Shown one piece after another: positions 19,594-51,052 of a stretch of 51,052 nt of DNA (its first letter is position 1; the number at the start of each line of letters is the position of its first letter). A program made the position numbers and the translations under genes. The notes beneath the pieces are model-generated. The model did not search any database. It was given only the letters and a program-made list of their open reading frames with translations, and had not been told where the DNA came from. Location of the stretch: positions 1-51,052 of the IMG/VR virus record IMGVR_UViG_3300046683_000394. One strand, given 5' to 3'. The DNA comes from a virus.

Positions 19594-20625
19594 ATGACCA
19601 ACACGGCGCAGCCCCAAACGTTTCTCGATCTCTACACGTCACTTCTCAATTCCGTGCGCGAGCAGACCTCGCAAGTGGCGACCATTATTCAGGCCAAGCG
19701 CTATATCAACACCGCGCTTATGGACATTCACATCGGGTTCGGTGAACGCTTTCCGTGGGCGGAACGTCAAGCGCGGCTTACCACAATGGCCCCTTACGCC
19801 ATCGGCACGCTCAGTATTGCGAAAGGCGCGACCGCTGTTGCGGGCATCGGAACCGCATGGTCCAGCTTAAATTCTTTCGGGATTCCTAACGTGCGGCCGA
19901 CCGGGAAGCTTGTCATCAACGGGACCTCTACGGTTTATGAAATCGCCAATTCGCCCATCGGCGCAACCTCGCTGACGTTGGCGAGCCCGTATGTTGACGC
20001 GAGCGTGGTGAACGGGACCTATCTCTATTTCGAAGACGAATATGATCTCGACGCGGATTTTTTGCGGCCTATGGACATGCAGTTTTTCGATTCCGCGCAC
20101 TCAATCGGGATCATCGACCGCAACCGCTTCCGCCGCCAATATCCGAAAAACAGCGTCACCGGCAAGCCAATCGTCGCGTGTCTGTTTGATCGCGCCTTTG
20201 TCGGCAATACGACTCCGGTTCGGCGCGTCGCCTTCTTCCGGCCGCCCGCCGCGAATTATTCGATCCCATATGCGTTCGTGACCAACAAGCTCGCAATCTC
20301 ATCGGCCGGTCAGCCTCAGACCTCGCTTAATCTCGACACGGACGAACCGATTGTTCCGCTGCAATATCGCCACGCCATCGTCACGCAGGCGCTTTATGTC
20401 TGGTATCGCGACAAGAAAGACGACACGCGCAGCGCCGAGACCAAGCAGGATTTTGTTGATTTGATGCTGCGCATCGCGGGCGATACAGAAGTGGGCGAAC
20501 GCCGCCCGTACATTCAGCCCGCTATGGGCAATTACCGCCGTCGCGCGCGCTCGCCGTATTCGCGCGCCGGTAGTGGGCGACATACAATCGGCACGCGCTT
20601 TGATCGGATGGAATCAGACTGGTGA
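19594..20625 (+). CDS. Probable head-tail connector or tail adaptor protein
   Basis: 343 residues. The N-terminal 60 residues are helical (FLDLYTSLLNSVREQTSQV) and resemble phage adaptor proteins; residues about 75-160 are a beta domain; the remainder is mixed alpha/beta with a basic, flexible end. It lies directly before the beta-rich tail gene and overlaps it by GTGA. The adaptor role is inferred from order and fold pattern. Confidence 0.65.
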   Translation: MTNTAQPQTFLDLYTSLLNSVREQTSQVATIIQAKRYINTALMDIHIGFGERFPWAERQARLTTMAPYAIGTLSIAKGATAVAGIGTAWSSLNSFGIPNVRPTGKLVINGTSTVYEIANSPIGATSLTLASPYVDASVVNGTYLYFEDEYDLDADFLRPMDMQFFDSAHSIGIIDRNRFRRQYPKNSVTGKPIVACLFDRAFVGNTTPVRRVAFFRPPAANYSIPYAFVTNKLAISSAGQPQTSLNLDTDEPIVPLQYRHAIVTQALYVWYRDKKDDTRSAETKQDFVDLMLRIAGDTEVGERRPYIQPAMGNYRRRARSPYSRAGSGRHTIGTRFDRMESDW

Positions 20626-22202
20626 CATCGCGCTCACGCTTCTTGAAGCATATTTTTACCGGTGGCTGGGCAACCGATTACGGCCCTTCGATCTCGGTTC
20701 CGATCAGCCCTGGCGGGATCGTGGCAATCCCATGGCTCACGCTGGCGGAAAATATCATTTATGAGCTGGACGGCGGCCCTCACAAAATGCCCGGCCGCAT
20801 CGCCAATACGCCAGTGCTTGAAGGCGGCGCGCTCATCATGGGCGTATTCGATGGCTGGTTTAATGTGACGGCCAACACAGCGGTTCAACACCGCCTGATG
20901 CACGTCGGAACCAAGATCAAAAAAGACAATGCGGACAATGTTTTCACGGACATAAAGACCGGTCTCGTGGCGGAAAGCGTGCCTTGCTACACCATGTTTG
21001 AAGGCATCTGCATTATCAGCAATGATAGCGGCGTCGATGTGCCGCTCTCGTGGGATGGCGTTGCGGCCGGGACCGTGAACCTGGGCGGTTCGCCGCCCAA
21101 GTTCGCGTTTTCCGTGACGCACAAAAACAAGGTGTGGGCCGCTGGCGATCCGCTTCAGCCTTCGCGGTTGTATTATTCGGTAACTCTAAACGGCGCGGAT
21201 TGGGCCGGTGCCGGTTCCGGCTTCATCGATGTTGACCCGGCCGATGGAGATAGAATTACCGGCATCATCAGTCATCGCGATGAACTTTGGGTCTTCAAAG
21301 GCCCGTACAAGGGTTCCATCCATCGGATCACCGGCAGCTCGCCATCGGACTTCGCGCGCGTGGTCTTCGCGACAAGCATCGGCTCGGTCAATCATCGGCT
21401 CATTGCGACCTATGCGAACGATGTAGTTTTCGGCTGGTCCGATGGCTCGTTTCACACGCTTTCGGCAACGGCCAATTTCGGCGATTTCAACGAAGCGGCA
21501 TTGTCCCGGCAAATACAATCCTGGCTGCGCGAGCATGTGAATCTTGCGACGCTGCGCTATGCGCAGGTTGCCAATTGGCCCGCCTATTCGATGATGCTTT
21601 TCGTTCTGCCGGTTGACGCGCACCCGCACAACAATTGCACGCTGATGCTGGATTACCGCTTTGACCCGCCGCGCTGGGCAAACTGGACGGCGTTCGCCGA
21701 TCTCACAACGGTTGCGACCGGCGTCAGCACGGCGGCGACGAAGGTCCGCATGATGCTGGCGGGCGGCGATGACGGCATTTTGCGGATGCTCGGCCATCCG
21801 GTGCGCAACATCGATGGCGCGGGCAGCATCCCGTTTCATATCCAGACGCCTTATTTGGACTATCAATTGCCGCAGCGCATGAAGACCTTGGAAGGCGGCT
21901 CGATCACGACGCAGCCAAAAACCGGCGTGGACGATTTCATCTTCGGCTGGGCGCGCGACAACCACGCGCAACAGACCATCCTCATTCCACCGGGCGGCGC
22001 GGTGCCGCTGGATCAATTCCTGCTCGATAGCGACGTGCTCGGCGGCGGCCGGTTTTACGATGCTTTTTTCCGCTGCGACGAAGAAGGCGGCACCTTCCGC
22101 GCGATCCAATATGCCGTGCTCGACAATGTGCCGAGCCAAGACTTAGAGCTGCACGCGATCTCTGCGGCGATCACGGTTGACGCAGAAAGCTTCGAAGCAT
22201 GA
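20622..22202 (+). CDS. Tail nozzle / head-stabilisation protein, beta-propeller-like
   Basis: 526 residues from a GTG that overlaps the previous TGA. Repeated blade-like units such as HRDELWVFKGPYKGSIHRI and ANDVVFGWSDGSFHTL suggest a beta-propeller. Similar proteins in podoviruses close the tail tube. It overlaps the next gene by ATGA. The assignment is by fold pattern and position. Confidence 0.68.
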   Translation: MTSRSRFLKHIFTGGWATDYGPSISVPISPGGIVAIPWLTLAENIIYELDGGPHKMPGRIANTPVLEGGALIMGVFDGWFNVTANTAVQHRLMHVGTKIKKDNADNVFTDIKTGLVAESVPCYTMFEGICIISNDSGVDVPLSWDGVAAGTVNLGGSPPKFAFSVTHKNKVWAAGDPLQPSRLYYSVTLNGADWAGAGSGFIDVDPADGDRITGIISHRDELWVFKGPYKGSIHRITGSSPSDFARVVFATSIGSVNHRLIATYANDVVFGWSDGSFHTLSATANFGDFNEAALSRQIQSWLREHVNLATLRYAQVANWPAYSMMLFVLPVDAHPHNNCTLMLDYRFDPPRWANWTAFADLTTVATGVSTAATKVRMMLAGGDDGILRMLGHPVRNIDGAGSIPFHIQTPYLDYQLPQRMKTLEGGSITTQPKTGVDDFIFGWARDNHAQQTILIPPGGAVPLDQFLLDSDVLGGGRFYDAFFRCDEEGGTFRAIQYAVLDNVPSQDLELHAISAAITVDAESFEA

Positions 22203-25960: not shown

Positions 25961-27670
25961 ATGGCAAGCGCCGAAGACTATGCCAGTTGGATCGTGAAGA
26001 ACGCCGATAAAAAAGGCACGCCGGAATTCGACACGGTATCAAAGGCGTACCAGGAAGCGCGTAGCGCGCCAGCCGCGCCAGCCGCCGCGCCGCCGCCAGC
26101 GCCAGCCATTGCGCCGGGCCAAAGCTATCATCAGCGAATTGCGGCCGGGTTCGCCGACACGCCAGCGTTGAATCAGATCGACGCGAGCAACGCCGCGCTT
26201 GGAACGGAAGGCGCTTGGAACGCAGCCCCCGGCGTTCTGACCGGCGCGGTTTCGCAGATCGGCGGCGCACCGGGCGAGGTTGCAAATCTTGCTTCCGGCG
26301 TTTCCGATGTGGCCGGAATGCACGGTCTCGCGCAGGGCATCAGAGACTATAATCCGTTCCCGAACATGGATCAGTTCGGCAACATGATCGCCGGACAAGC
26401 GGAAAACGATCAGGTGACGGCGTTCCGCAAGGCGGGCCAGCTCATCGGCCCCGGCCCGTTCTGGAAGGGCGTCGGCGGCGTCGTCGGCAAAGTTATGAAT
26501 CTAGGACAGGGCAAGCCCATTGGGGCGGCGATAAAAGCCAATGACGCAGGATATGTCTTACCGCCTCGGATGGTGACGAAAGGCGATCAATCAGCCGGGC
26601 AGCAAGTTGCGTCGGCGGCGAGTGGTAAGGCAAAAACCAATCAGTATTTTTCGCTCAAAAATCAGCCGAACACGAACAGACTCGCGGCCGAAGATATCCA
26701 ATTGCCGGGCAATGAGCGGATCACGCAGGAAGCAATTACCGGTCAGCGAGAAAAATTCGCGGCCGATAAAGCGGCGATCATCAGCAGTCTTCCCCAGGTC
26801 GCCACGGATGCCACGTTCAAACGGGCGATTAGCGCGCTCGCCGGGCGCGAAAGCGCCGCCGCGAAAGAATTCTCTGACATTGTAAAAAAAGCTGGCATTG
26901 AAGAAATAGCGAAAGCGAATAGCTTGGCGCAACCGGCTTGGTCGCCCGAAGCCGCAGCCGGACTCGTCGTGTCCTTGCGGGATGATGCTGCCGCCAATTT
27001 GAAAGCCATCGGCCCAGGCGCGAGATTGGAACACGCCAAGGGGCTCGCGCAGAAACAGGCGGCCGACGCGATGGACGATCTCATCGCGCGCAATCTCATA
27101 AAGAACGCTGGCAACGACCCCTATCACGGCGCGGCGCAGGCTGCGAACTATGCAAAAGCGCGCGAGCTGATGGCAAAAACCTACGATGTCGAAGACGTAA
27201 CCGATTTCACCACAGGCGACGTGAACGCGCACGCTGTTCACCGGCTTTCGAAAGCTGGCCGCCCGCTAACTGGCGGCCTCGCTACCATCGCTGAAACGGC
27301 TGGAAATTTCCGTGGCGCAACGCAGCCAGCGCAAATGATCGGCGGGATGGAACATGGAAGCGTGCTCGATTTTTATCTCATGGCGCACGCGCTCGCGAAA
27401 GGCGATCTTACGACCGCAGGCGCGGTTGCGGGCCGGATAGGATCGCGGCCGTTTTTGGCGTCGAGCCGCAATCAAGCAAGGATCATGCAGCAGCCAGTTG
27501 AGCCGGTGCAATTGCCTGGACACCCGTACACGTTCGCGCCGTCTCAAGCGCAGGTCCAGGCCGGTGCCAACGCTTCGCGCAACCTTCCGACAATGCGCGG
27601 GCTTGGGCTGCGCGCCGCGCCGCCGACACTGAATGCGCTCAATCTCTATCTCGGATCGGGGAACCAATAA
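25961..27670 (+). CDS. Putative internal virion / DNA ejection protein
   Basis: 569 residues, nearly the same length as its upstream neighbour and starting immediately after its stop. An Ala/Pro-rich linker (about residues 36-50) follows a short helical N-terminus; the rest is mainly helical with Ala-rich stretches. The region around residues 85-130 is Gly-rich and amphipathic, possibly membrane-active. It is a candidate pore or ejection protein. Its stop overlaps the next ATG (TAATG). Confidence 0.6.
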   Translation: MASAEDYASWIVKNADKKGTPEFDTVSKAYQEARSAPAAPAAAPPPAPAIAPGQSYHQRIAAGFADTPALNQIDASNAALGTEGAWNAAPGVLTGAVSQIGGAPGEVANLASGVSDVAGMHGLAQGIRDYNPFPNMDQFGNMIAGQAENDQVTAFRKAGQLIGPGPFWKGVGGVVGKVMNLGQGKPIGAAIKANDAGYVLPPRMVTKGDQSAGQQVASAASGKAKTNQYFSLKNQPNTNRLAAEDIQLPGNERITQEAITGQREKFAADKAAIISSLPQVATDATFKRAISALAGRESAAAKEFSDIVKKAGIEEIAKANSLAQPAWSPEAAAGLVVSLRDDAAANLKAIGPGARLEHAKGLAQKQAADAMDDLIARNLIKNAGNDPYHGAAQAANYAKARELMAKTYDVEDVTDFTTGDVNAHAVHRLSKAGRPLTGGLATIAETAGNFRGATQPAQMIGGMEHGSVLDFYLMAHALAKGDLTTAGAVAGRIGSRPFLASSRNQARIMQQPVEPVQLPGHPYTFAPSQAQVQAGANASRNLPTMRGLGLRAAPPTLNALNLYLGSGNQ

Positions 27671-28194
27671 TGGCTCTGGCGCGCGTCAAAGTCTGGACGC
27701 CGGAAATCTTGACGGCGACCGATCTCAATACGGAATTCAACAACATCCTGAATTACCTCAACGGCGCGGCCGTCAACCTGAACACGCCGACGCTGAACAG
27801 CCCGACGATCACCGGCACCGTAGCAGGCGGCGCAACCTATATTTCGCCGGTTCTGTCTAACCCGACAATGACCGGCGTCGCCCTCATTGCCGGGCTTTAT
27901 TCCGGTAGCTTTTCCCAAAATCCAGCCGCCAACAATACGTTCTACACGGCGATTGCCGCCGCGACACTTGCCGCCAATCGTGGAAATTATTGGATATTTG
28001 CCTCAAGCGGATTCAATGTCGTGGCCTTCGCGGGGCTCATAACCCAATTCGCCGCGAGCCCGGCGCTGACCACCTTTACGGCCGGTTCGCTTGTCGCCGT
28101 GCAGCTCGACGGCGCGGGCAATTTCCAGGTCAAGCAAACGACCGGCGTCGCGAATGAAATCCATTGCTCTTGGCTATATGTGCCAGCGCCCTAA
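27670..28194 (+). CDS. Short tail-fiber-like protein
   Basis: 174 residues. The N-terminus (VKVWTPEILTATDLNTEFN) matches the opening used by many phage fiber proteins to attach to the virion. A repeat follows (NTPTLNSPTITGTV; SPVLSNPTMTGVA) that suggests a triple beta-spiral or similar shaft. The C-terminal part is beta-rich. It is the last gene of the late block and its stop overlaps the stop of the leftward gene on the other strand. Confidence 0.72.
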   Translation: MALARVKVWTPEILTATDLNTEFNNILNYLNGAAVNLNTPTLNSPTITGTVAGGATYISPVLSNPTMTGVALIAGLYSGSFSQNPAANNTFYTAIAAATLAANRGNYWIFASSGFNVVAFAGLITQFAASPALTTFTAGSLVAVQLDGAGNFQVKQTTGVANEIHCSWLYVPAP

Positions 28195-28607
28195 AGCCGT
28201 TCAGCCGCCATCGTCAGCCGCAAGTCGTGTAGGTCGGCGATGTTCGCGCCGTGGGCGTTGAACCGCGAGCCGCAGCTCGGACAGGCCACGTTCATGCTCG
28301 CGCCGCCGCAAGGCCCCGGCATCATCCCGAAATTGCGGCAGTCTGGGCATTGGCCGCGCTGAAGCGCCTGGATCATTTCCAATTGCTCAAGCATCCGCTC
28401 TGTTGCCGCGATCTTGCGAAGCGTGCGGCGGTTCCAAAAGAAAACCGCAATCTGTACCCCGATCAGCCCGCCATTGATCGCGACCAAAACCCATTGGCCC
28501 TGGATGATGCCAAGGTAGCCGAAGAAGATTGACCATGGGATCGCCGCGAGGCACAGCAATTGGGTGCGCCGGATGTTGCGTTTAAGCTTGGTGAAGTCGT
28601 GCGTCAT
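28191..28607 (-). CDS. Two-helix membrane protein with zinc ribbon tail
   Basis: 138 residues from the ATG at 28607 (ATGA overlap with its upstream partner). Two membrane helices lie at about 17-35 and 40-58, then a helix, then two Cys pairs (C87/C90 and C109/C112) of a zinc ribbon. It converges with the late block with overlapping stops. Its site at one prophage end and its separate direction suggest a gene expressed apart from the late genes, perhaps in the lysogen. No family named. Confidence 0.72.
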   Translation of the reverse strand: MTHDFTKLKRNIRRTQLLCLAAIPWSIFFGYLGIIQGQWVLVAINGGLIGVQIAVFFWNRRTLRKIAATERMLEQLEMIQALQRGQCPDCRNFGMMPGPCGGASMNVACPSCGSRFNAHGANIADLHDLRLTMAAERL

Positions 28608-28834
28608 TTCGGTTGCGCCTGCGTAACCCACACGGCGAACTTGCCGCATTGCGGACATGGCAGGTCCCACAAGCCCGGCCGCTGGGGAAAATGCTCGGGT
28701 GGGCAAGCACCGGCAAGGCCGCACGCAAGGCACGCCATCGCCTGAAAATGCGTCACGGCGGAAACCCCGGTGGGCGTCTCGGCGGGCGCGATCTCATCGA
28801 TTAGGCCAAGCACTGTTTCAAGATCGGCGTTCAT
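28604..28834 (-). CDS. Small Cys-rich protein
   Basis: 76 residues, coupled by ATGA to the membrane/zinc gene. Cys pairs in ACLACG and CPQCG suggest a zinc site in the C-terminal half. A palindrome (28833-28845) that loosely fits the repressor operator covers its start codon. The two-gene unit sits next to attP and may be a lysogeny gene pair. Function unknown. Confidence 0.68.
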   Translation of the reverse strand: MNADLETVLGLIDEIAPAETPTGVSAVTHFQAMACLACGLAGACPPEHFPQRPGLWDLPCPQCGKFAVWVTQAQPK

Positions 28835-28881
28835 GCGGGCTGCATCCTAGCGCCGACGCGCGCCGCGCTCAATCGGCGGTA

Positions 28882-28910
28882 TTGGAACCAAATCGGGTTT
28901 GATGTATTAT
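28882..28910 (+). promoter_or_regulatory. Promoter for a candidate small RNA
   Basis: TTGGAA (28882-28887) and TATTAT (28905-28910) are separated by 17 bases; the -10 matches five of six positions of the sigma-70 consensus. It points right into a short non-coding stretch that ends in an intrinsic terminator. Confidence 0.55.
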
Positions 28911-28916
28911 GCGTCC

Positions 28917-28991
28917 TGCGTGCATGAGATTTGCCCCTCGTATCACGCGATTGCCAATTGGCCCGCTGGCGCACACGTCGGCGGGCCTTTT
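28917..28991 (+). ncRNA. Candidate small RNA, about 75 nt
   Basis: A sigma-70-like promoter ends at 28910 and an intrinsic terminator ends at 28991, giving a predicted transcript of about 75 nt. A frame is open across it, but it has no ribosome site and runs on through the terminator, so a non-coding RNA is the simpler reading. It sits between the two leftward genes and attP, so it would lie at one end of the prophage. No RNA family is recognised. Confidence 0.45.
28960..28991 (+). terminator. Intrinsic terminator near attP
   Basis: GGCCCGCTG pairs with CGGCGGGCC (28960-28968 with 28979-28987, one wobble) and is followed by TTTT, then GCTTTT. It acts on the + strand and would end the candidate small RNA or stop read-through across the prophage boundary. 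Confidence 0.75.
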
Positions 28992-29006
28992 GCTTTTGGA
29001 TTTAAG

Positions 29007-29203
29007 CGCCGTTCACCTGAACGGCGGACGAGTCCATTGCTGGGTTTTAGTGTCCATTTCCGGCCGTTCAGAGTCCCAAAAGTCCAATGATTTCCTGACT
29101 ATAGCCACCCTTCACACGGGAGAGGTCATAGGTTCAAACCCTGTCGCGCCCACCAATGAAATCAAAGACTTAGTTAGAAGCGCCGTTCAGGCCCCGCCGT
29201 TCA
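29007..29203. repeat. Arm-type repeats CGCCGTTCA flanking attP
   Basis: CGCCGTTCA occurs at 29007-29015, inverted at 29018-29026, at 29181-29189 and at 29195-29203; a variant GGCCGTTCA is at 29062-29070. Three copies are left and two right of the tRNA-like core. This arrangement is what integrase arm-binding sites look like. The motif occurs twice more at 50508-50528. Confidence 0.55.
29106..29155 (+). other. attP: attP core: 3' half of a tRNA-Val(CAC) gene
   Basis: The sequence contains an anticodon arm (CACCC, loop TTCACAC, GGGAG; one mismatch), a full T-arm (ATAGG, TTCAAAC, CCTGT), an acceptor strand CGCGCCC and the end ACCA. The bases to the left are not tRNA-like, so this is a tRNA 3' half. 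Temperate phages carry such a piece so that integration restores the host tRNA gene. The CAC anticodon indicates tRNA-Val. The integrase gene starts 70 bases away. Confidence 0.82.
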
Positions 29204-29224: not shown

Positions 29225-30193
29225 TCATCCCAACATCGTCGCTGCGGACGCACGCTTGAGATAGTCCGGCCCATGCTTCCCATAGACGCGCTCGACGGTC
29301 TTTTCAGAGTCGCCCAACATGCGCGCAACCTCGGCAATCGGGACGCCAGCTTCGACCATCCAGCTCGCTGCGGTGTGGCGAAGAATATGGGGCGTCACGT
29401 CTTCAAGCTTCGCCTTCGCGCGCGCTGCATTGAAGCCCTTCGTGATCGACGCGACCGGGCGGCCGAAATACTCAATGATATGATCCGAGCAGGCGAGTTC
29501 CTTCGCGATCAGCAGGGCGGGGTAAGCGTCATCGTTAAGCGGGACAACCGCGCGGCGCTTGTTGCCGTGCCCGCGCCCCATGTCGATCAGGCGGCGGTCC
29601 CAATCTATTTGCTTCCATGTCGCCTCAAGGATGGCCCCAGATCGGGCGCATGTATTCAGGGCAAGCAGGATGAACAGGCGGATGTGAGGGACTGTGCAGG
29701 CCGCCAAGAGCCGCCTAGCTTCATCTTTGCTCATCCATCGCTGACGCGGCAGCGGTGTGGGAACCGGGTTGTTGATCTCTGGGCGACTCGGAATGAGCTT
29801 ATGCAGGACGGCATAGCCGAGCGCGGCGCGCAGGACGCCAACCTCACGCAAAACGGTTCCGTCCGACGCCCCGCGTTGCAAGGCATAGCGTTTGATGGCG
29901 GTCGGCGTGAGGCATTCCGGCGTAAGGTTCCCTACGCCACGGATTAGGGCGTCAACGCCATATTTCAGGCCGTCCTGACCGCGCAGCCCTTTGCCGTGAT
30001 CGTCACGGTAAGCCACAAGGATTTTGGCTACGGTTTGGTCGGCGATGGTGGGCTCTTGCGAGCCCGCGATGAATTGCGAAAGGAAGATTTCCGCTTCATC
30101 GCGATTACTCGACCGCGTTGAAATGCGTTGCCGCTCTCGGTGCCCGAAGCGGACGTACCATGTTCCGTTTGAGTGTTGCCAAAGCTTGTGCAT
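29225..30193 (-). CDS. int: Tyrosine site-specific integrase
   Basis: 322 residues. The N-terminus (HSNGTWYVRF) is the usual arm-binding start, a SAM-like core-binding domain follows at about 50-135, and the catalytic domain has R184 (CARSG), K212 (GNKRR), H269 and R272 (HILRHT) and Y304 (RVYGKHG). The third basic position before the Tyr reads LGDSE, so Asp replaces the common His. It catalyses integration at the tRNA-Val site and excision with the neighbouring Xis. It is the last gene of the leftward recombination operon. Confidence 0.95.
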   Translation of the reverse strand: MHKLWQHSNGTWYVRFGHRERQRISTRSSNRDEAEIFLSQFIAGSQEPTIADQTVAKILVAYRDDHGKGLRGQDGLKYGVDALIRGVGNLTPECLTPTAIKRYALQRGASDGTVLREVGVLRAALGYAVLHKLIPSRPEINNPVPTPLPRQRWMSKDEARRLLAACTVPHIRLFILLALNTCARSGAILEATWKQIDWDRRLIDMGRGHGNKRRAVVPLNDDAYPALLIAKELACSDHIIEYFGRPVASITKGFNAARAKAKLEDVTPHILRHTAASWMVEAGVPIAEVARMLGDSEKTVERVYGKHGPDYLKRASAATMLG

Positions 30194-34566: not shown

Positions 34567-35307
34567 TTAACCTCCTACTTGGATTGGGAACCCGAGACCT
34601 GACAACATCGCCGAAACGACCGGGACTTGCCGCATCGGCACCATGACATGAATTACAATCACGCCGTCAATCGGCGGCGCTTCGTTGACGCGGAAAGGCT
34701 GATGCTGCACGGCGGGCACGCCGCCGTTCGTCTTGTTCTTGGCACCCTTCGGGCGACCAATCGGCTTCGCCGTGGTGTCCGTCAATTCGCCGTCCAATAG
34801 CTTGCGCTCGGCAAGTAGGCCGCTGACGGCGGATCGTACCCAGGACGGACAATGGCCGCGCTTTTTCCAGGTGTGCCATTGGCCGCTTTTCACGCCAAGC
34901 AAGGTTTGAATCTCTTTCGTCATAACGCCAAGCTTTTCCTCAAGGCCGATCAGGAACCCGGACGGAACTTGCTCAACGATGTGCGCGCCTTTGGGCGGCC
35001 TCTCGATCTTCAGCGGCCCGATGTTCGGCTTGCGTGGTGCCGCGCCGTTGACGTGTTTGATCGGCGGCAGGCCACGGTCGGCAAGCAATTTGTCAGCGGC
35101 CTCGCGCACGAAGATCGGACATTCGCCAGACTTGACGTATGGGGAATAGCGGCCGACCGTGAATCCAAGCAGGGGCGCTAATTCCTTTTTCGTCATCCCA
35201 AACTTTTCATCCAGCCCGACCAGAAAGTGACTCGGCACCTTTTCAGCGACGCGCGCTCGCATCACCGCAGCGCTGCGCCTCATAACCATTTCTTTATGCG
35301 TTTCCAT
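34567..35307 (-). CDS. Protein with a duplicated helical (HTH-like) domain
   Basis: 246 residues from the ATG at 35307, which has an AGGGG ribosome site; an upstream start at 35358 would overlap the repressor gene. Residues 20-80 and 110-170 are two copies of one domain at a spacing of 90: EKVPSHFLVGLDEKFGMTKK matches EQVPSGFLIGLEEKLGVMTK, and both have a Gly-x-Cys-Pro turn followed by V-R. Each copy has a HTH-like order of helices. A basic linker with AT-hook-like RPKGAK follows at about 184, then a beta-rich end. It may bind two DNA half-sites. Confidence 0.7.
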   Translation of the reverse strand: METHKEMVMRRSAAVMRARVAEKVPSHFLVGLDEKFGMTKKELAPLLGFTVGRYSPYVKSGECPIFVREAADKLLADRGLPPIKHVNGAAPRKPNIGPLKIERPPKGAHIVEQVPSGFLIGLEEKLGVMTKEIQTLLGVKSGQWHTWKKRGHCPSWVRSAVSGLLAERKLLDGELTDTTAKPIGRPKGAKNKTNGGVPAVQHQPFRVNEAPPIDGVIVIHVMVPMRQVPVVSAMLSGLGFPIQVGG

Positions 35308-35321
35308 GTGTTTGCCCCTTT

Positions 35322-35933
35322 TCACTTTGGTCTGATTTCTATGACTTTCGCCGCCCATTCAAGTTCCACGTTTTCCATTGTCGGCCCCATCGTCCAGCTC
35401 AATAGATTGAACCGGCCGCGCGTCCCACGGCGGACCTCTTTCATCACCACCTTACCGTTCTTGATCTTGGCGACGCAGAGCTGGCCGATGCAATCTTCCG
35501 GCACATTATCGCCCTTTCCGCTACGCCAGAAAATCAGCCAACCGTTTCGCAACGGGAATTGTGAATCGCCATCGATGCGAGCGGCAACGCAATCGCTAAA
35601 GCCGAGCGGCTGATTATCGGTCTCGCCGTTGGCAAAGCCTTTGATGTATTTAATTTCGCCGCCCGCGCCGATCCGGCCGACAATCGGCGCAACCCGAGTC
35701 TTGGGCGTGCCGCTGCCGGTGAGCAGCCATTCCAGCGAGATTTGATAAAACTCGGCATAGCGCCGCGCCGTGCTAACGGGAAAGCCGCGTGCCCCGTTTT
35801 CATGCGCCTGATAAGTCGGTTCCGGCACGGCTAACGCTCGCGCCGCGCCCGCCGCCCGATCAAAGCGGCCATCAATAGAACGAGCCATACGAAGCCGTCC
35901 CGCTTTCGCTTCATGTTCATCCGGTCCTTTCAT
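35322..35933 (-). CDS. CI-type phage repressor with S24 self-cleavage domain
   Basis: 203 residues from the ATG at 35933 with an AGGGGG ribosome site. Residues 10-75 are a HTH domain (ARALAVPEPTYQAHENGARG). The C-terminal S24 domain has an Ala-Gly pair at 90-91 as the likely cleavage site, the nucleophile S124 (DGDSQFPL) and a probable catalytic K165 (VVMKEV). It would keep the prophage silent and be cleaved after DNA damage. It faces away from cro across a region with three operators. Confidence 0.88.
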   Translation of the reverse strand: MKGPDEHEAKAGRLRMARSIDGRFDRAAGAARALAVPEPTYQAHENGARGFPVSTARRYAEFYQISLEWLLTGSGTPKTRVAPIVGRIGAGGEIKYIKGFANGETDNQPLGFSDCVAARIDGDSQFPLRNGWLIFWRSGKGDNVPEDCIGQLCVAKIKNGKVVMKEVRRGTRGRFNLLSWTMGPTMENVELEWAAKVIEIRPK

Positions 35934-35959
35934 CGTTTCCCCCTTGGCACAAATCACCG

Positions 35960-35972
35960 ATGCAGTGTGCAT
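35960..35972. promoter_or_regulatory. Operator 1 of the immunity region
   Basis: ATGCAGTGTGCAT, a 13-bp palindrome with half-sites ATGCA/TGCAT and 3 bases between. Nearest to the repressor gene of three such sites. Confidence 0.7.
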
Positions 35973-35986
35973 AACGGTTTGATTCG

Positions 35987-35999
35987 ATGCAAGAGGCAT
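35987..35999. promoter_or_regulatory. Operator 2 of the immunity region
   Basis: ATGCAAGAGGCAT, the same palindrome with one half-site changed. Centre-to-centre distance to operator 1 is 27 bases. Confidence 0.7.
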
Positions 36000-36020
36000 C
36001 GGATTTCTAAACAACCTGCA

Positions 36021-36050
36021 TTGACAAATCCTGTGCAAAAGGCATTGAAT
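36021..36050 (+). promoter_or_regulatory. Rightward cro promoter, possibly leaderless
   Basis: TTGACA (36021-36026) and TTGAAT (36045-36050) with an 18-base spacer. The predicted start of transcription is at about 36057-36058, which is the ATG itself, so the mRNA would have little or no leader. Operator 3 fills the spacer, so bound repressor would block polymerase. Confidence 0.65.
36033..36045. promoter_or_regulatory. Operator 3, inside the cro promoter
   Basis: GTGCAAAAGGCAT lies between the -35 and -10 of the rightward promoter and touches the -10. Same motif as operators 1 and 2; centre 46 bases from operator 2. Confidence 0.7.
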
Positions 36051-36057
36051 TAGGGAA

Positions 36058-36309
36058 ATGTCCAAACCTTTCGATATTGCCCGGTTGCGTCGCTTGCTCG
36101 GCGTCCCAGGCCAGCCGATCAGCCAAGCCCAACTGGCGAAGCGGCTCGGCGGCGTCCATCAGGCTTGTGTCTCGCGCTGGGAATCCGGCGTCACCAAGCC
36201 GCCTAAGACCGCGATTTTATTGATGGAAATGTTGCAGGACGAAGCTATTGGCTTGCGGTCGGCCCGCAAAGACAAGCGCCGGTCAAGCGCGGCCGGGCTC
36301 ACCGCGTGA
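36058..36309 (+). CDS. Cro-like helix-turn-helix regulator
   Basis: 83 residues. Residues 20-55 form a clear HTH (ISQAQLAKRLGGVHQACVSR then WESGVTKPP). It is divergent from the repressor gene and controlled by operator 3. It probably binds the same operators to favour lytic growth. Its transcript may be leaderless (see promoter). Confidence 0.82.
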   Translation: MSKPFDIARLRRLLGVPGQPISQAQLAKRLGGVHQACVSRWESGVTKPPKTAILLMEMLQDEAIGLRSARKDKRRSSAAGLTA

Positions 36310-39029: not shown

Positions 39030-39347
39030 ATGAGAACGGGGCAAATCGACCTATTTGGCGAGGTTCGCAGCCAGCCGCCACCTAAGCCGCCAAAGCCTGC
39101 ATACGATCCGTGGATAGCGATTTACGCGCGCGGCAAGGAAGTGCTCGGCCGATCATCGGGCGGGCAAATTACGCTGTTGCGCAAATTCTATGACGACAAG
39201 CCCAGCAAGGTCATGGCGAAGATTGAAGATGCGGCCGAACATCGCGTGCCGGTGACGTGGCTTGCGGCATGGCTTTGGTCCGTCCACGATCCCGAAGGCA
39301 AGCTATCCGGCGAGACAATACCGGGCGGGTGGGACGCTAACGAGTGA
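39030..39347 (+). CDS. Hypothetical protein before the primase genes
   Basis: 105 residues. A Pro-rich N-terminal part (SQPPPKPPKP), then a compact helical domain (QITLLRKFYDDKPSKVMAKI). The stop overlaps the GTG of the zinc-finger gene (GTGA). It could be a helicase or primase accessory; no family recognised. Confidence 0.68.
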   Translation: MRTGQIDLFGEVRSQPPPKPPKPAYDPWIAIYARGKEVLGRSSGGQITLLRKFYDDKPSKVMAKIEDAAEHRVPVTWLAAWLWSVHDPEGKLSGETIPGGWDANE

Positions 39348-44149: not shown

Positions 44150-44667
44150 TCGACGGTTACTCTTACCGGCAGCGGTGGATGACGCGCTTCAACCTCGCCG
44201 GTTCGTTCGTACCATTCGCCGTCCGGCGTCAGCGGCGGTGCCCAGATCGTGAAACCGTCTCGTTCATTGAAGCGGACCAAAGCGGCCATGCCCTCTTGGG
44301 CTCGCGCGAAAAGATAGGCGCGCAGGTCGGGCGCGCGGTGAGCGTATGGGAAGCGCGGATCAACCCAAATTTGCAGGACCGGAACCTTGGTAAGTTCGCC
44401 CGTCGCGTTATCGCGCAACGTCACATAGTCCGGCATTATGTCGATGACGTAATGCGCGCGGTCAGGTCGCGGTAGACTTTCGGTATCTTGGCCCGATAGC
44501 CAGCGACACGTCCATATCTGACACGATGGCGGGCGGTCGGCATAGATCGCGCAGCCCTTACCGTGTCGCTGATGTGTACAGCGCGCGCTCGCGGGCTTGT
44601 GCAGCTCGCGCACTGGCAAGAGCTTGCAACAAAGGGTGCAGGTCCCGCAGGTCCGATTCGTTGTCAT
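44146..44667 (-). CDS. YkgJ-type Cys cluster protein
   Basis: 173 residues. Eight Cys near the N-terminus (7, 10, 13, 14, 30, 39, 49, 54) in the order CGTCTLCC ... C ... C ... PPSCQIWTC, as in YkgJ/UPF0153 zinc- or iron-binding proteins. The rest is alpha/beta. Its biochemical role is not settled in the family. Its 5' end overlaps a membrane-protein gene by 110 bases. Confidence 0.8.
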   Translation of the reverse strand: MTTNRTCGTCTLCCKLLPVRELHKPASARCTHQRHGKGCAIYADRPPSCQIWTCRWLSGQDTESLPRPDRAHYVIDIMPDYVTLRDNATGELTKVPVLQIWVDPRFPYAHRAPDLRAYLFARAQEGMAALVRFNERDGFTIWAPPLTPDGEWYERTGEVEARHPPLPVRVTVE

Positions 44668-50507: not shown

Positions 50508-50528
50508 CGCCGTTCAAAGCGCCGTTCA
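50508..50528. repeat. Second cluster of the attP arm motif
   Basis: CGCCGTTCA at 50508-50516 and 50520-50528, 12 bases apart, with the core CCGTTCA once more at 50628-50634. The same motif flanks the attP core at 29.0-29.2 kb. Confidence 0.5.
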
Positions 50529-50884: not shown

Positions 50885-51052
50885 ACTCAGGCGGCGGGCG
50901 TTAGCGTTCTATTGCCGCGCGCGAGAGATTTGCGCGGTGGATAGAGTCCGATTCCCCCCCCCATTTTGAAGCCGGATTTTCTGTCGAAAATGATCGGCGG
51001 TTTGGTGCTGGCGCTGATTGATGCTTTGTGGGCATCGCGAGGCGGTGCTGGC
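50885..51052. repeat. Right copy of terminal direct overlap
   Basis: Repeats bases 1-168 with one difference (A at 50926, G at 42). Trimming one copy gives a circle of about 50,884 bp. The mismatch means either a population variant or a sequencing error. Confidence 0.9.

Follow-up and report, generated by a model that had tools for sequence, protein, structure and literature searches.

The stretch from 28882 to 28997 on the forward strand of the virus record IMGVR_UViG_3300046683_000394 is best explained as a free-standing small-RNA (sRNA) gene of a temperate phage, whose product would carry an anti-Shine-Dalgarno (anti-SD) loop (probability roughly 0.6). RNA polymerase would start near 28917 and stop at a strong terminator, giving an RNA of ~80 nt composed of a 5' hairpin with UUGCCC exposed in its 8-nt loop, the linker CGCGAUUGC, a terminator hairpin, and a U-rich tail. 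The loop would act as an anti-SD seed that pairs with ribosome-binding sites containing GGGCAA, and this pairing would lower translation of phage mRNAs. The most likely first target would be the gene following a CI-like repressor, and host mRNAs may be affected as well. The parts of this reading differ in strength. That the stretch holds a real, conserved sRNA unit is quite probable, and comparison with a second phage lineage shows conservation of this predicted unit; anti-SD action of the sRNA on phage mRNAs is plausible, at a little under even odds.

The window analyzed here is the whole virus record of 51,052 bases. It carries a direct terminal repeat of 168 bases with 1 mismatch (positions 1-168 and 50885-51052) and is therefore probably a circular phage genome with an intact attP rather than an integrated prophage. 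The first-pass annotation had placed the candidate at a prophage edge; it does adjoin an att core, but the terminal repeats speak against the integrated state. Rightward head and tail genes extend to 28194 and are followed by two leftward ORFs (28191-28834), the sRNA stretch, the attP core, and a leftward tyrosine integrase (29225-30193, minus strand; PF00589, E 4.5e-20; phrog_1). The two leftward ORFs overlap each other and contain CxxC pairs with, by eye, a zinc-ribbon look; neither matched Pfam or PHROG, and no relatives were found for either. The att core (29106/8-29155, plus strand) corresponds to the 3' half of tRNA-Val(CAC) and lies ~110 nt past the sRNA terminator. Of 385 genomes from the class to which G028 belongs (Falsochrobactrum, Alphaproteobacteria), 180 matched a query spanning 28860-29180; all of the matches listed overlap the att core, and none extends to the sRNA. 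ARAGORN identified tRNA-Val(CAC) in L049 and in 8 of the 9 further loci scanned, and the att core of the window matches tRNA-Val genes of Alphaproteobacteria. The sequence GCCGTTCA occurs in 13 copies in the window, five of which fall in a 200-base region surrounding the att core (29008 +, 29018 -, 29063 +, 29182 +, and 29196 +), with a further two at 50509 and 50521. The copies in 29008-29203 and 50509-50528 are perhaps integrase arm sites.

The sigma-70-like promoter TTGGAA-17-TATTAT noticed earlier is present at 28882-28910 (+), with 9 of 12 consensus matches. Its -10 box is the basis for placing the RNA start near 28917, for which an RNA of 75 to 81 nt is predicted (28917-28997, plus strand). 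The distance from the -10 box to the terminator stem is 49 nt, in agreement with the gap of about 50 bases first estimated, and no SD-like sequence was seen between promoter and stem, as had also been reported. The intrinsic terminator (28960-28997, plus strand) consists of a stem at 28960-28987 followed by the T-rich tail TTTTGCTTTT. The stem had been described as 9 bp beside a T-tract; the terminator stands, but we count 12 stem pairs when G-U is allowed, including 10 G-C pairs, and a loop of 4. Other terminator-like sites listed in the window have at most 7 G-C pairs; taken together, such sites occur at about the number that chance predicts (82 listed in the window, ~70 expected). Promoter-like sites number 14 in the window, against ~22 expected from shuffles, and 203 of 5,000 shuffles of 28835-28959 (125 nt) contain one. 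By itself, the promoter of the window is thus not more than chance. The sRNA unit rises above chance as a whole because a related phage keeps it.

The relatives were found through a search with the terminase TerL, in which the best segments were 83% identical in G003 (49,119 bases; its N-terminal piece, 75%) and 81% in G009 (26,796 bases). These two records share 99.99% identity across the 8 kb compared and were counted as one lineage, so that two independent sequences of the unit are known. Between the rightward genes and an att-like sequence, this lineage carries TTGAAA-17-TAAATT, 19 nt, TTGCCCC, 8 nt, CGCGATTGC, and a terminator; the unit in the window reads TTGGAA-17-TATTAT, 20 nt, TTGCCCC, 8 nt, CGCGATTGC, and a terminator. 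TTGCCCC, the proposed anti-SD seed (28931-28937, plus strand), is identical at 7/7 positions and the linker motif (28946-28954, plus strand), at the same 8-nt spacing from the seed, at 9/9. Identity is thus 16/16 in the motifs, compared with 24 to 38% outside boxes and motifs: 10/42 upstream, 6/17 in the promoter spacer, 5/19 in the 19 nt before the seed, and 3/8 between the motifs. The -35 boxes agree at 5/6 positions and the -10 boxes at 3/6, yet both -10 boxes are consensus-like. A promoter-like site 17 to 23 nt before the motif arose in 18 of 20,000 shuffles for the relative and 73 of 20,000 for the window, figures that are not fully independent, as the two phages share ancestry, with nearly unrelated sequences outside the conserved parts.

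The first-pass annotation had proposed checking in relatives whether promoter and terminator are conserved together, and in G003/G009 they are, giving two lineages including the window. The description of a free-standing RNA beside attP also holds up, in that promoter, hairpin loop, linker, and terminator are kept despite a different integrase and att site. The G003/G009 integrase differs from that of the window (405 residues; PF00589, E 1.3e-9). At 2640-2712 of L039, in G009/G003, we noted by eye a different tRNA-3'-end-like, att-like sequence, in which ARAGORN finds no whole tRNA. The comparison suggests that integrase and att were exchanged while the sRNA unit stayed. The closeness of the putative sRNA to attP is incidental, because the att-like sequence of the relative lies ~600 nt beyond the unit, with an ORF in between.

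We folded the predicted RNA over 28917-28995 and obtained a 5' hairpin and the terminator, with an energy of -40.3 kcal/mol (z -4.6); the candidate has one hairpin besides the terminator. The 5' hairpin (28917-28949, plus strand) has an apical stem formed by 28924-28928 and 28937-28941, which is kept in the relative, and an 8-nt loop, AUUUGCCC. In the minimum-energy folds of both the window and the G003 RNAs, UUGCCC forms part of an 8-nt loop closed by a 5-bp stem, and the last C of the TTGCCCC motif closes the apical stem in the window. All five apical pairs occupy matching alignment columns in the two RNAs, with 10/10 cells pairing, compared with only 30 to 60% in control structures slid by 1 to 3 columns. 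Two of the five pairs differ between window and G003 by double-sided changes and one by a single-sided change; shuffled 3' letters match these covariation values in 129 of 500 cases, the alignment having two rows only. Between the two phages, the lower stem and the terminator have diverged both in sequence and in register. Among 83 strong terminators from the window, L003-L043, and L159-L215, with overlapping loci counted more than once, a GCCC-loop hairpin stands upstream only at these two distinct sites (window and G003/G009). The predicted U-rich tail is compatible, and only compatible, with Hfq binding. A 16-nt direct repeat, TTGCCAATTGGCCCGC, which holds the self-complementary GCCAATTGGC, occurs at 28951-28966, in the sRNA linker and terminator stem, and again at 21568-21583, within ORF 20622-22202.

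Intrinsic terminators stand at the end of phage late operons, and the unit shares with them its position and its terminator. The stretch could accordingly do no more than terminate the rightward late operon, protecting attP and, after integration, the host flank from late transcription, and its promoter-like site would have arisen by chance. The chance-level score of the promoter taken by itself fits this explanation, as does the arrangement of the genes: the last rightward late gene (end 28194) overlaps the convergent ORFs at 28191-28834, which leaves a nearer terminator no room, and, in the relative, the end of a convergent ORF overlaps the terminator, whose stem is followed by a T-rich tail on either strand. 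However, the window unit adds a conserved promoter, hairpin loop, and linker to what such terminators have, and the 16/16 identity of loop and linker, the kept stem, and the promoter-like site in the corresponding position of the relative would all be left unexplained. We consider this explanation unlikely. A 3'-UTR-derived sRNA, in which a functional hairpin, linker, and terminator are cut from a longer rightward mRNA without a promoter of their own, would account for the conservation of these three parts and for their place downstream of rightward genes in both phages. It is improbable, given that the 17-nt spacing of the boxes and their distance from the motif (20 and 19 nt) are preserved while the spacer itself is just 6/17 identical.

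Two further explanations are very improbable. A leaderless or weakly initiated peptide could begin at the GTG at 28920 (MHEICPSYHAIANW... in the window, MHCPTWRAIAEK... in the relative); both frames open with GTG CAT, and the length from GTG to motif differs by 6 nt, in frame. We rejected the coding reading since no SD was seen, the open frames inside the RNA having no SD-like sequence before their starts, and since third codon positions are among the nucleotides shared (GCG ATT, TGC CCC); in addition, the frame passes through the terminator hairpin, and the peptides are dissimilar past AIA. If the RNA acted as antisense to leftward transcription that enters 28917-28997 from the integrase side and proceeds toward gene 28604-28834, a read-through transcript would be fully complementary to it, as there are leftward genes on both sides, but the window has no credible leftward gene opposite (only a 47-amino-acid ORF at 28831-28974, minus strand, is listed there, which we took as chance), the leftward ORF of the relative overlaps the terminator by its 3' end only, and a conserved loop would not be needed.

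The search for further members of the sRNA family was carried out at several levels. The exact terminator sequence gave 0 matches in viral_contigs. Integrase relatives comprised one at 41% in viral_contigs and two, at 41% and 31%, in genome_contigs. The TerL search returned 33 loci; those at 100% were short fragments of the phage in the window, and among the remaining loci only G003/G009 were both close and long enough to span the sRNA region. DNA and integrase searches gave 0 matches in the records of 27 of the 33 TerL loci. The same DNA search also missed G003 and G009, which carry the unit, so the DNA and BLASTN negatives cannot exclude diverged copies. The last tail gene led to at least 49 loci, and gene 25961-27670 to three, all from the phage in the window or G003/G009. 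TerL had one match at E 1e-40 or better in 385 alphaproteobacterial genomes, on an 11-kb contig that stops before the sRNA region. BLASTN of the sRNA region of the window against 50,697 phage records gave no match, and that of the relative gave a 21-nt match (E 0.5) in three Vibrio phage records.

The pattern TTGCCCC-N(5-11)-CGCGATTGC occurs in 84 viral stretches and in 12 of 385 genomes, compared with 1 for a reversed control. Among the best 80 of the 84 viral stretches and the 12 genomes, the full unit was found in the window and G003/G009 only; of the others, only L140, L157, and L082 have the motif in a weak terminator-like context, and none has the unit. We dropped the bare motif as evidence, since the pattern matches elsewhere without the full unit. 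A looped TTGCCC hairpin with a terminator was found in 10 rows from 211 records, consisting of the two elements in several copies plus L206, which was rejected as a homolog on its stem of 4 bp. A covariance model of the sRNA and its homolog, run on 43 loci, gave nothing else above 14 bits, the top two hits being the training sequences. Covariance model R1 gave 10 matches with an E value of 0.01 or less in the 385 genomes, where ~4 are expected by chance; none of the eight alignments examined had TTGCCCC in the matching loop with a T-tail, and we did not accept these matches as homologs. One of the eight, L222, has UGCCCC in a doubtful hairpin without a T-tail. Rfam 15 gave 0 matches at the gathering threshold in the window, and a lax Rfam search of 28860-29020 gave, as matches spanning the sRNA, CC1840 (14.2 of 50 bits) and anti-hemB (11.6 of 49.5 bits). 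Literature searches gave no paper reporting the element in its title or abstract, which is weak evidence because such searches cannot be run by sequence.

We ranked 63 gene starts of the window (62 called and 1 added by eye) by predicted pairing with the loop. The loop, UUUGCCCCU, pairs over 9 bp with the SD sequence AAAAGGGGCAAACACATG of the gene at 34567-35307 (minus strand), which ranks second of 63 (-15.5 kcal/mol). This proposed target lies directly after the CI-like repressor gene (35322-35933, minus strand), assigned by a match to phrog_4 transcriptional repressor (E 3.8e-12) in a scan of the longer ORF 35322-36065; the repressor has no Pfam match. The G003 ortholog of the proposed target encodes a protein that is 37% identical, and its SD sequence retains GGGCAA (AGAAAGGGCAAGCAAATG); the start of this gene after CI pairs with the G003 loop at -14.0 kcal/mol, over a longer stretch. 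The protein encoded at 34567-35307 has no Pfam or PHROG match, so that we dropped the name helix-turn-helix protein for it; the G003 ortholog has a weak match to phrog_8 "transcriptional regulator" (E 0.0053). Predicted pairing with ribosome-binding sites that include the one of the gene after the CI-like repressor makes a role of the sRNA in phage control possible. The action in immunity or on host mRNAs that the first-pass annotation had suggested would also be possible. The first rank of 63 belongs to a second proposed target at 39030-39347 (plus strand), where the strongest pairing is a 10-bp match to the complement GGGGCAAATC just inside the gene, beside GGGCAA at its SD sequence (AAAGGGCAAACATG). 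This pairing site is not conserved at the G003 ortholog. Just upstream of that ortholog, at 13537-13737 of L208 (minus strand), G003 has a small gene (MQEWLPISTAPRDGRPI...) with the SD sequence AGAAAGGGCAAACAG and no Pfam match.

Next to these individual sites, we considered GGGCAA over all genes. A G003 match exists for 39 of the 65 window genes compared; among these 39, GGGCAA lies upstream of four in the window and two in G003, and 34567-35307 is the only gene with it in both, a single shared case that is not in itself significant. Within 22 nt of a start, GGGCAA was found at 3/66 genes in the window and 6/77 in G003, or 9/143, compared with 3/384 in comparators (Fisher p 0.0007; p 0.004 against five comparators with a G+C of 0.52 to 0.63, which had 1/174). 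The 13 comparator sets, the TerL relatives G010, G012, and G024 plus 10 of the at least 49 tail-gene loci, have no unit in the parts covered, and they are an imperfect control in that they differ from the carriers in host and composition. The counts vary with the gene caller (1/81, 7/69, and 6/77 for G003; 4/79, 3/62, and 3/66 for the window), and those quoted come from one caller applied to all sets. It misses two GGGCAA sites seen by eye, at the G003 start after CI and at 44667 (minus strand) in the window, and one of its three window sites (6854) belongs to a doubtful ORF overlapping another gene. When the letters of GGGCAA are arranged in all 60 possible orders, this hexamer is the most frequent in G003 (mean 1.0) and the second most frequent in the window (mean 0.88). 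In G003, GGGGAA and GGGGCA are as frequent near starts as GGGCAA (6 each), and the seed may therefore only mirror common SD sequences.

Comparison with shuffled loops gave different results for the two phages. The G003 loop pairs with 44 of 70 starts at -10 kcal/mol or below (shuffle mean, 27.5; reached by 3/300 shuffles), with 25 at -12 (mean, 12.2; 4/300), and with 57 at -8 (mean, 46.6; 15/300). The window loop pairs with 31 of 63 starts at -8 (reached by 172/300 shuffles), 18 at -10 (mean, 16.2; 122/300), and 10 at -12 (mean, 5.8; 54/300); its pairing with these 63 starts is not beyond that of 300 shuffled loops. As the G003 loop beats its shuffles whereas the window loop does not, the predicted anti-SD reading of the loop is likely in kind, and the target list is tentative.

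By analogy, we propose that the candidate sRNA would work most like alpha-r14/NfeR1 and like the UCCC motifs of Staphylococcus aureus. RNAIII of S. aureus is far larger than the candidate. The alpha-r14/NfeR1 sRNAs of Sinorhizobium are reported to have divergent stems that leave an identical C-rich anti-SD motif unpaired, and pairing at translation initiation regions silences mRNAs (PMC10746234). The likeness lies in an anti-SD motif shown on hairpins with divergent stems; alpha-r14 has three hairpins with CCUCCUCCC and was studied as a bacterial sRNA (PMC10746234), whereas the candidate has one hairpin with UUGCCCC and belongs to a phage. With one hairpin, another motif, and no Rfam match, membership in alpha-r14 was rejected. 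The Rsa sRNAs and RNAIII of S. aureus resemble the candidate in their accessible C-rich hairpin motif: an accessible UCCC motif lies in conserved hairpin regions, with SD pairing predicted or shown (PMC3861533), although the phylum is another and the motif is UCCC there and UUGCCCC here. Phage sRNAs that act on lysogeny control are already known. A review lists OOP, P22 sar, 24B_1, VpdS, and aQ under lysis-lysogeny, all drawn from a handful of intensively studied phages (lambda, P22, phi24B, and VP882 among them), and PreS as acting on the host (PMC12197685). These are likewise phage encoded, and several act on lysogeny regulators, but OOP, sar, and aQ act as antisense RNAs on their targets (PMC12197685), whereas the candidate lies away from its proposed target. 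An OOP/sar-type antisense RNA was discarded on this ground, the proposed target lying elsewhere and not opposite the sRNA. The candidate would be an sRNA of uncultured phages, found by comparison alone, with a defined seed and a testable first target beside the repressor gene.

Finally, we looked for signs of repressor control. Exact ATGC-N5-GCAT palindromes occur in the window at 28833, 35960, 35987, 41389, 47883, and 50259, six copies compared with 2.2 expected in shuffles (2 of 100 shuffles reach 6); with up to one mismatch, 31 sites are listed. Two exact copies lie in the CI/cro gap (35960 and 35987), the exact copy at 28833-28845 covers the start of a leftward ORF, and a further copy, with one mismatch (28909-28921), spans the start of the sRNA. 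These palindromes are possible repressor operators, in which case the sRNA would be off in a quiet lysogen. The sRNA of the relative has no copy within two mismatches. Control of the sRNA by CI is a lead only, because the excess of copies is modest (6 versus 2.2) and the relative has none at its sRNA. A broader and rather unlikely extension of the anti-SD reading is that one sRNA would be a shared translational brake on the phage's own genes with GGGCAA in their ribosome-binding sites, namely, the gene that follows the repressor in each of the two phages, together with the integrase and last tail gene in G003. The lysis-lysogeny switch and integration would thereby gain a layer of RNA control, which the operator-like palindrome at 28909-28921, over the sRNA start of the window, would tie to the repressor. 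If so, the repressor operon and, in the relative, also integration and late genes would be connected by a single short RNA.
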